DNA of 22,501 bases, from positions 1,496 through 23,996 of IMG/VR virus record IMGVR_UViG_3300030101_003346; one strand, 5' to 3'. Shown piece by piece: positions 1,005-15,492 of the stretch. Position numbers and translations under genes: made by a program. The notes under the pieces were generated by a model. The model ran no database searches. It saw nothing but the letters and a program-made list of their open reading frames with translations, and was not told the origin of the DNA. This stretch comes from a virus. How positions within the stretch are numbered: the stretch's first letter is position 1; every line of letters begins with the position of its first letter.

Positions 1005-1031
1005 TTGACAATGTAAGGGATATCCTATAAT
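1005..1031 (+). promoter_or_regulatory. Putative sigma70-type promoter overlapped by a palindrome
   Basis: TTGACA at 1005-1010 matches the -35 consensus and TATAAT at 1026-1031 matches the -10 consensus. They are 15 bases apart, shorter than the usual 16-18. TAATAT at 1028-1033, at 17-base spacing, is an alternative -10. It lies 30-60 bases before the gene at 1061 and directly after the stop of the previous gene. The promoter is almost entirely covered by the inverted repeat at 1011-1042, which suggests repression by a dimeric DNA-binding protein. Confidence 0.6.
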
Positions 1032-1042
1032 ATCCCTTACAT
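1011..1042. repeat. Perfect 13-bp inverted repeat, candidate operator
   Basis: The left arm (1011-1023) and right arm (1030-1042) are perfect reverse complements, separated by six bases (CCTATA). The left arm abuts the -35 box and the -10 box crosses the spacer. No T-run follows, so a simple intrinsic terminator for the upstream gene is less likely than an operator, although the RNA could still fold into a stable hairpin. The inner GGATATCC (1018-1025) is itself palindromic and resembles the motif at 1472-1484. Confidence 0.65.
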
Positions 1043-1954: not shown

Positions 1955-3436
1955 ATGAACTTAGATAAAGAAAAACTAAAAAATCTAGATAAGCTGCCGC
2001 CTGATATCAAGAGACAGTTTGCACTGTACATGAACCAGTGGAAAGAGAAGAAAAAGGAGTCTCAGATAGCTACTGATTTTTTGAGTTTTGTAAAACACGT
2101 ATGGCCAGATTTTGTTGAAGGGTCTCATCATAAAGTGGTCGCAGATAAATTTAATAAAATTGCAAATGGAGAAATTAAGAGATTAATTATAAATATGCCA
2201 CCAAGGCATACTAAATCTGAGTTCGCCAGTTTCCTGTTGCCTGCTTGGATGGTCGGTAGAAACCCGAAGCTAAAAATAATTCAATCAACAAATACAACAG
2301 AGCTATCTGTAAGGTTCGGTCGTAAAGCTAAACAGCTGATTGACTCACAAGAATATCAACAAGCATTTAAGACAAGACTAAAAGAAGATAGCCAGGCTGC
2401 TGGTAAATGGGAAACAGAACAAGGCGGCGAGTATTATGCAGCAGGAGTTGGATCCGCTATTACAGGTAGAGGTGCTGATCTTTTAATTATTGATGACCCG
2501 CACACTGAACAAGATGCTATGAATGCACAAGCACTTGAAAGAACTTTTGAGTGGTATACGTCAGGCCCACGTCAGCGTCTACAACCAGGTGGATCTATTG
2601 TATTAGTTATGACTCGTTGGAACGAGAAAGACTTAGCCGGTCGTCTTATAAAAATGCAACAAGAGCCAAAAGCAGATCAGTGGGAGGTAGTTGAGTTTCC
2701 AGCGATACTACCATCTAATGAACCTTTGTGGCCTGAATATTGGGCAAAGAAAGATTTAGAATCTGTTAAAGCTAGTATTCCATTATCAAAATGGAATGCA
2801 CAGTATATGCAAAACCCAACAGCAGAAGAAGGATCTTTGATCAAAAGAGAATGGTGGCAAAGTTGGGAGAAAGAAGAATTACCAAATCTAGAACACGTTA
2901 TACAATCTTACGATACAGCTTTCATGAAAAAACAAACAGCTGATTATAGTGCTATTACAACATGGGGTGTGTTTACTTTGAACGAAGACTCAGGTCAGCA
3001 ATTAATATTAATTGATAGTATTAAAGGTAGATACGAGTTTCCTGAGTTAAGACGTATCGCACTAGAACAGTATGGATACTGGCAACCTGAAACAGTTATC
3101 ATTGAGTCCAAAGCATCAGGGCTACCATTAACTTATGAGTTGCGAAAAATGGGCATACCTGTTATAAATTTCTCACCCTCAAAAGGCAACGATAAGCATA
3201 CGAGGGTAAACGCGGTTTCTCCTCTGTTTGAGTCAGGGAGAATATGGGCGCCCAAAGAAATGGAATTTGCACAAGAGGTCATAGAGGAATGCGCAGCTTT
3301 TCCTTATGGAGACCATGATGACCTAGTAGATTCTATGACACAAGCTGTTATGAGATTTAGACAGGGTGGATTTATCGAACACCCAGAGGATTATAAGGAC
3401 GAACCTATGCCACAAAAACAGAGGACATATTACTAA
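1955..3436 (+). CDS. terL: Terminase large subunit
   Basis: The packaging motor ATPase and nuclease. It pumps phage DNA into the prohead through the portal and cuts the concatemer. The 493 aa are normal length. The N-terminal ATPase domain shows a Walker A-type segment (MPPRHTKS, 81-88), a Walker B (LLIIDDPH, 176-183) and a coupling-type motif (LVMTRWN, 217-223). The C-terminal RNase H-like nuclease domain shows acidic positions in IQSYDTAF (D320), VIIESKASG (E384) and GDHDDLVDS (453-459). Family knowledge places these as the metal ligands. No good Shine-Dalgarno sequence precedes the ATG at 1955 (the leader is A/T only), which is odd for such a gene. Its stop shares a base with the next start (TAATG). 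No small terminase gene is recognisable beside it. Confidence 0.96.
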   Translation: MNLDKEKLKNLDKLPPDIKRQFALYMNQWKEKKKESQIATDFLSFVKHVWPDFVEGSHHKVVADKFNKIANGEIKRLIINMPPRHTKSEFASFLLPAWMVGRNPKLKIIQSTNTTELSVRFGRKAKQLIDSQEYQQAFKTRLKEDSQAAGKWETEQGGEYYAAGVGSAITGRGADLLIIDDPHTEQDAMNAQALERTFEWYTSGPRQRLQPGGSIVLVMTRWNEKDLAGRLIKMQQEPKADQWEVVEFPAILPSNEPLWPEYWAKKDLESVKASIPLSKWNAQYMQNPTAEEGSLIKREWWQSWEKEELPNLEHVIQSYDTAFMKKQTADYSAITTWGVFTLNEDSGQQLILIDSIKGRYEFPELRRIALEQYGYWQPETVIIESKASGLPLTYELRKMGIPVINFSPSKGNDKHTRVNAVSPLFESGRIWAPKEMEFAQEVIEECAAFPYGDHDDLVDSMTQAVMRFRQGGFIEHPEDYKDEPMPQKQRTYY

Positions 3437-11807: not shown

Positions 11808-12047
11808 ATGGAAGAGTTTAACATTATATATAAAATACAAAGAATGTTGAAAGAAGACTATCAATCTATTGGTGAAACAATGATTAGTGGTGCTATTGAC
11901 AATATGGAAAAATACAAATATATGATGGGACAGGCACATGCCTATAAAAAAATATCACAGGAAATCTCTAACCTGCTAAATAAGAAGGAGCAAATAGATG
12001 AACAACCAGACCTCGAAAACGTCGTCAAATTCGACCCCAAAAATTAA
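11808..12047 (+). CDS. Small helical protein, 79 aa
   Basis: Not recognised. Mostly alpha-helical by composition: about 1-58 has heptad-like spacing (IIYKIQRMLKEDYQSIGETM, then a second helix around YKYMMGQAHAYKKISQEISN) and the C-terminus is acidic. It has no Cys and no membrane segment. AGGAGAAAGA just upstream is the ribosome site. It overlaps the GroES-like gene by 50 bases in another frame, and that gene's ribosome site lies within it. Being at the head of the head-assembly genes, it may act in assembly or be a small terminase-like factor. I see no specific evidence for either. Confidence 0.75.
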   Translation: MEEFNIIYKIQRMLKEDYQSIGETMISGAIDNMEKYKYMMGQAHAYKKISQEISNLLNKKEQIDEQPDLENVVKFDPKN

Positions 12048-12456
12048 ACTAGCATTAGAAGAAAAATATAAAGCAGAAGATAAAAAAGAAATAGATGCTT
12101 ACGAGCGTTTAAAAAAGAAAGAAACTAATAAACTTCCTAAACCAACAGGTTGGAGATTACTAGTATTACCTTTTAAAATGCCTGAAAAGACTAAAGGTGG
12201 TCTTTATATTGGTCAAGATACATTAGAACGTCAACAAGTAGCCTCTACTTGTGGATTAGTTTTAGAAACGGGTCCTCATTGTTATGATGAAGAAAAATTT
12301 CCAGAGGGACCTTGGTGTAAAAAAGGTGATTGGATTATTTTTGCAAGATATGCTGGATCTAGAATTCAAATTGACGGGGGTGAAGTTAGATTGTTAAATG
12401 ATGATGAAGTGTTAGCAACTATAGATAACCCCGAAGATATACTTCATCAATATTAA
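11998..12456 (+). CDS. GroES-like co-chaperonin
   Basis: Phage-encoded 10-kDa chaperonin (Cpn10 family). It would cap host GroEL and help fold a bulky capsid protein, as T4 Gp31 does. The Cpn10 domain spans about 48-143: KPTGWRLLVLPFK, then the mobile loop with KTKGGLYIGQDTLERQQVAS (64-83, compare the GGIVL region of GroES), GLVLETGP, KKGDWIIFARYAG and DDEVLATIDNPEDIL. The first 47 residues are an extra polar extension not found in E. coli GroES (97 aa). AAGGAG (11985-11990), seven bases before the ATG, fixes the start inside the upstream gene. No GroEL is encoded here. It lies just ahead of scaffold and capsid, which fits the role. Confidence 0.88.
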   Translation: MNNQTSKTSSNSTPKIKLALEEKYKAEDKKEIDAYERLKKKETNKLPKPTGWRLLVLPFKMPEKTKGGLYIGQDTLERQQVASTCGLVLETGPHCYDEEKFPEGPWCKKGDWIIFARYAGSRIQIDGGEVRLLNDDEVLATIDNPEDILHQY

Positions 12457-15467: not shown

Positions 15468-15492
15468 TGAGGCGGGACACAATCCCGCCTCA
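15468..15492 (+). terminator. Rho-independent-like terminator after the capsid gene
   Basis: A perfect 10-bp stem, TGAGGCGGGA (15468-15477) and TCCCGCCTCA (15483-15492), has a CACAA loop. It begins 13 bases after the capsid stop. Only TTT follows, so it may end transcription partially and protect the capsid mRNA from 3' decay. Confidence 0.75.

Follow-up and report, generated by a model that had tools for sequence, protein, structure and literature searches.

The window analyzed here, a 22,501-nt stretch of an IMG/VR virus record, is a fragment of an HTVC023P-type pelagiphage, as judged by its terminase large subunit, which is 83 % identical to that of HTVC027P and 62 % identical to that of HTVC023P. 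Phages of the HTVC023P type are ocean viruses infecting SAR11 bacteria and are widespread in marine viral sequence sets. On the + strand, gene 1 (21–1001) encodes a 326-aa protein of unknown function that is homologous to HTVC027P gp35 (28 % identical) and for which no PHROG or Pfam family scored above the cut-off. It is followed co-directionally by gene 2 (1061–1465; 134 aa), a fusion of ORFs resembling HTVC027P gp36 and gp37 that arose by a deletion of ~180–200 nt relative to relatives with two separate ORFs. The gene for the terminase large subunit (1955–3436, +; PHROG 38, E = 3.5e-111) starts the packaging and structural block, in which a phage GroES-like co-chaperonin, annotated in HTVC027P too, is encoded at 11998–12456. 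Directly to the left of the window the source record (L557) contains ten N at its positions 1486–1495, so that the immediate upstream region and promoter of gene 1 are unreadable.

Between genes 1 and 2, also on the + strand, a −35 box TTGACA (1005–1010) abuts a perfect 13-bp inverted repeat: left (5′) arm ATGTAAGGGATAT (1011–1023), spacer or loop CCTATA (1024–1029), and right (3′) arm ATATCCCTTACAT (1030–1042). The ribosome-binding site AGAAAGG (1048–1054) and gene 2, the first gene after the promoter, come next. The initial annotation described a promoter overlapped entirely by this dyad, and that description holds: boxes and arms lie where it placed them, and the promoter is conserved. Among the window's perfect inverted repeats whose arms are separated by no more than 30 nt, the dyad (1011–1042) is the longest; when the window was shuffled ten times with a first-order Markov model, none of 13 or more arose, the maximum being 12. 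Sense RNA of positions 1005–1060 folds at −17.8 kcal/mol (z −5.0), and the stem of HTVC027P at −17.8 kcal/mol in the sense versus −10.1 kcal/mol in the antisense orientation. Rfam covariance models gave no match at E values up to 1 in 900–2000 of the window.

A search with the gene 1 protein and its relatives retrieved 410 locus records containing the gene 1 C-terminus, some of which overlap on one contig; they yielded 295 different intergenic regions and 166 different dyads, of which 162 have arms of at least 9. IMG/VR as a whole contains more than 580 relatives of gene 1. The promoter-dyad arrangement is conserved in hundreds of HTVC023P-type pelagiphage sequences, nearly all with the same layout: stop codon, −35, dyad, AAC, AGAAAGG, ATG. 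Stems measure 11–15 bp in most relatives, and 111 of the 162 unique dyads between gene 1 and gene 2 are perfect. The inner 24-mer of the window's dyad recurs exactly in 32 IMG/VR stretches, with TTGACA equally distant wherever the contig extends far enough, and a search for extra copies of the exact dyad with up to three mismatches found one copy each in 10 records and in the window's own record. This exact dyad is common to phages whose gene 1 proteins are ~28 % identical, which suggests cassette exchange. The element also precedes other small genes, in most cases with the same terminase downstream. HTVC033P contains a relative of gene 1 and no such promoter-hairpin 3′ of it. In HTVC023P the stem closely precedes a separate promoter instead of overlapping it, and in variants with another promoter layout a CACAATGGCGA stem stands before an extended −10, again upstream of the start.

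The promoter format was defined by a position profile of 127 unique dyads, all anchored on TTGAC; 36 further regions without TTGAC mostly have TTGCAA/TTGTTG-like boxes or another promoter layout. The sixth base of the −35 box is A in 85 % of the 127 dyads, and a conserved T, A and T occupy positions 24, 25 and 29 from the first T of TTGAC (81, 80 and 79 %, respectively). The commonest −10 hexamer among the relatives is TAGGAT; in the window these positions read TAATAT (1028–1033), the hexamer also chosen by a promoter scan of the window. The −10 element therefore begins in the spacer and has most of its length in the right arm, and TATAAT at 1026–1031, which would leave a 15-nt spacer, is by this profile not the best-conserved −10. 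With a conserved −35/−10 distance of 17 nt the spacing is ordinary, and the suggestion that a 15-base spacing calls for a DNA-twisting activator loses its basis. MerR-type promoters combine an operator between −35 and −10 with long spacers (19–20 nt), not short ones, and assignment to that type was rejected for the 17-nt spacer found here.

Taken together, TTGACA, a spacing within 16–18 nt, a TANNNT hexamer and conservation upstream of a gene make the element a well-supported, consensus-like predicted host-σ70 promoter. Transcription is predicted to start at A1039 or A1041 (1039–1041), 6–8 nt 3′ of the −10 element and at the foot of the right arm; in the relatives, with one outlier, the 3′ edge of this arm falls within −4 to +6 relative to the predicted start. 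HTVC027P lacks an RNA polymerase and uses that of the host throughout infection (PMC12753301). When the window with its left flank, the first 45 kb of HTVC027P and three further long genomes were scanned for a promoter combined with a ribosome-binding site and ATG, the scan returned the dyad promoter, a second promoter before an 80-aa gene, a divergent leftward promoter and two isolated matches. The second promoter (TTGACG-17-TAGGAT; 1449–1477, +) carries only a 5-bp dyad, TAGGA/TCCTA, as it does in HTVC027P, and the region 1449–1495 is retained in HTVC027P as well as in three further long genomes. The divergent promoter, present in the window's record and in HTVC027P, has no co-directional gene directly upstream. 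Both promoters share the format of the dyad promoter and are without a long stem, with arms of 3–4 bp in the divergent promoter and 5–6 bp in the second one, which lies inside the downstream unit.

The arms themselves vary widely, and ATGTAAGGGATAT, TATGGGACAATC, CCCTATCCTAT, GATTAGGGAGTTT, GAGGGACATTA and AATAGGGCTATTCTA are among the sequences found; only GGGA...TCCC recurs. Covariation was counted in 155 sequences in six fixed ungapped registers, whose core cells comprise 1620 Watson-Crick, 71 G-T, 4 A-C and 11 other combinations (99 % paired). Changes on both sides occur in 56 of 68 core columns, and sliding the partner by 1–3 bases reduces pairing to 28–59 %. A separate pair count gave a covariation score of 0.866 versus 0.254 for shuffles, with the observed score reached in 0 of 500. 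Pairing in A5 is lowered by a gap introduced by MAFFT in 2 of 18 rows.

The departures from Watson-Crick pairing are asymmetric. Inside the arms of the 162 dyads there are 47 G-T/T-G pairs, a single C-A and no A-C, and the sole C-A call stems from a mis-registered dyad (L214). Reduced to distinct sequence contexts, the count is 16 G-T versus 0 A-C; the binomial probability of 16 out of 16 is 1.5e-5, for contexts that are not fully independent phylogenetically. The underlying changes are A>G and C>T, on both arms, with A>G the commoner. At four-fold sites the window is free of strand bias (T/A 1.03, G/C 0.98), and HTVC027P has a mild T excess (T/A 1.53) with none in G/C. Since A>G and C>T affect both arms and the four-fold sites of the window are unbiased, strand-biased deamination is an unlikely source of the G-T excess and was rejected. 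A function of double-stranded DNA would leave G-T and A-C equally often, so the asymmetry speaks against a double-stranded DNA reader; G-T without A-C is expected if a sense-strand RNA hairpin is under selection. A hypervariable stem that is, in all probability, selected at the RNA level is thus well supported by compensatory changes and by G-U tolerance on one strand.

Based on these observations, we propose, with a probability of roughly 0.55, that the element is a composite transcription-unit boundary, in which a host-σ70 promoter is nested in the stem-loop of a read-through RNA. The promoter (−35 TTGACA, 17-nt spacer, −10 TAATAT) would start the small-gene/terminase block via the host σ70 RNA polymerase, and the stretch from just behind the −35 box to about +1 would double as the code for an RNA stem-loop. 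Because the promoter's own transcripts would begin at the foot of the stem, they would lack the stem-loop, and only RNA presumed to be read through from the co-directional gene 1 would carry all of it; the stem therefore most likely acts on incoming RNA. It may end the incoming transcript at the junction, either by factor-aided termination or by cleavage and protection of the new 3′ end, and the promoter would then restart transcription for the downstream genes. An intrinsic (Rho-independent) terminator was considered and rejected: no U-tract directly follows the stem, with at most 2 T in 8 nt in 142 of the 162 dyads, so that classical intrinsic termination does not fit and factor-aided termination, cleavage and 3′-end protection are the candidates. 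Support for the putative boundary function comes from: (i) the stemless divergent promoter, (ii) the position of the stem upstream of the start in the variant layouts and (iii) the stem of HTVC023P. The recurrent GGGA...TCCC and the sharing of one dyad across phages with such divergent gene 1 proteins could count against an RNA boundary, as they could reflect either a recognized sequence or a recent exchange of the cassette.

More tentatively, and at odds we would put below even, the promoter may be self-insulating, in that the same ~30 bases act in DNA as the promoter core and in RNA arriving from upstream as a stem that stops or trims the transcript. If this is true, the promoter would be shielded from read-through with no extra sequence needed, compensatory changes would let its arms drift, and in abundant ocean phages the cassette would stand ahead of a changing set of small genes.

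A narrower form of the boundary proposal, which we consider rather unlikely, is that the stem is an RNase III site overlapping the promoter: read-through RNA would be cut in the stem without being stopped, and processed and newly initiated mRNAs, with near-identical 5′ ends, would both feed the downstream genes. The absence of a U-tract and the tolerance of G-U in an 11–15 bp stem are compatible with this, a cut in the right arm would place the 5′ end near +1, and the same genomes contain other U-less intercistronic stems; against it, typical RNase III substrates have longer stems, and those observed here are short by that measure.

The initial annotation took the dyad for an operator through which a dimeric regulator occludes the promoter, with the 134-aa product of gene 2 as a possible autoregulator. 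A perfect dyad extending from the −35 box to +1 is indeed exactly where a repressor would block, σ70 promoters overlapped by dyad-symmetric operators are known from LacI, TetR and cI-type systems, GGGA/TCCC recurs as a potential half-site core, and the exact 32-bp dyad is widespread. Unlike in those systems, the arm sequence here is variable, the exceptions obey RNA pairing rules, and no repressor was recognized in the adjacent 134-aa protein. The gene is kept and the arm sequence is not, which is the outcome that the initial annotation had named as refuting its reading; pairing is kept instead, and a tolerance of G-T that excludes A-C would be meaningless for double-stranded DNA. Moreover, six contigs (L008, L268, L270, L276, L497 and L551) carry two or three promoter-dyads with differing arms; they were identified by a looser scan for all TTGAC dyads, which includes chance dyads within genes and served only to find such multi-copy contigs. 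Neither does gene 2 make a convincing regulator: its 134-aa product has no significant Pfam or PHROGs family and no solved-structure match, hence no recognizable DNA-binding family, the Pfam similarity of its two fused parts (WYL_2-like and zf-FCS-like) is weak and below threshold, and the promoter-hairpin precedes other genes as well. An operator with a conserved half-site was accordingly rejected as the main explanation, and a phage or host dimeric repressor with lineage-specific specificity appears improbable.

A role of the stem as DNA, in single-stranded or cruciform form, for instance during replication or packaging close to the terminase gene, is in our view very improbable. The dyad does lie just before that gene, and a top-strand hairpin would likewise favor G-T over A-C; a cruciform, however, extrudes both strands and would remove the strand preference, and either form sits poorly with several copies per contig before different genes and with the coupling of the element to a promoter, a ribosome-binding site and a gene start. 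Coincidence in an AT-rich phage genome, in favor of which simple promoter matches are no more frequent in the window than in shuffles, is refuted by conservation and covariation across hundreds of sequences.

The closest known design is the promoter-early stem-loop (PeSL) cassette of T4-type phages (Arbiol et al. 2010; Comeau et al. 2014; cited in PMC4503421, PMC5931544 and PMC4177764), which the titles of these reports call mobile regulatory cassettes and composite promoter-terminator motifs mediating modular shuffling. As far as PeSLs are described in those titles and citations, the likeness consists in a σ70-like promoter with a stem-loop at gene borders, accompanied by variable small genes and placed before different genes. 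By the same descriptions the present element differs in that stem and core promoter are the same bases, from the edge of the −35 box to +1, in that a U-tract is absent, in that long genomes of the window's type have one copy only, and in that the phage group is unrelated to the T4-type. Given the other phage group, the lack of a U-tract and a terminator activity that is only putative, we do not class the element as a PeSL.

Two further systems share parts of the proposed design. In T7, RNase III sites lie at or near phage promoters, so that here as there a stem in read-through RNA is close to a promoter, and initiation and processing give similar 5′ ends; the T7 promoters serve the phage polymerase and the stems are longer, whereas cleavage at the present stem is only a candidate. 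Alphaproteobacteria possess stabilizing intercistronic stem-loops, e.g. in the puf operon of Rhodobacter, where a stem lacking a U-tract, situated between genes of the same orientation, can shield the RNA segment upstream of it. To our knowledge the puf stem harbors no promoter, in contrast to the arrangement described here. A literature search found no description of the present element.

A promoter whose non-transcribed core is selected as RNA would be unusual, and the idea is testable by compensatory mutation. Given the reliance of HTVC027P on host RNA polymerase (PMC12753301), the element would bear on how such phages partition transcription. The rule of TTGACA followed by a covarying stem ending at about +1 may be used to find transcription-unit borders in uncultured phages. 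The locus also advises caution, since a promoter can carry a perfect dyad that is not an operator, and sequence alone suffices to tell the two readings apart by counting G-T versus A-C.

Further stems and hairpin-bearing promoters were observed in these genomes. Strong intercistronic stems without a U-tract are found in the window at 15468–15492, after the major capsid gene, and at ~1754–1775, before the terminase gene; relatives have stems after the capsid gene and before the terminase gene as well, with different sequences. Three contigs (L071, 3332–4155; L073; L164) contain 3–4 copies each of a stem placed after TTGACA and before an extended −10; most read ATGGCGCC taac GGCGCCAT followed by a TGTGTTATAAT-like sequence, and the spacing from TTGACA, ~24 nt, is too long for a normal −35/−10 pair. 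In L008 (3245–3555), the right arm of one promoter-hairpin runs directly into an ATG, so that a 78-aa protein would be translated from a leaderless mRNA; a second promoter-hairpin with other arms is located 276 bp downstream of it.
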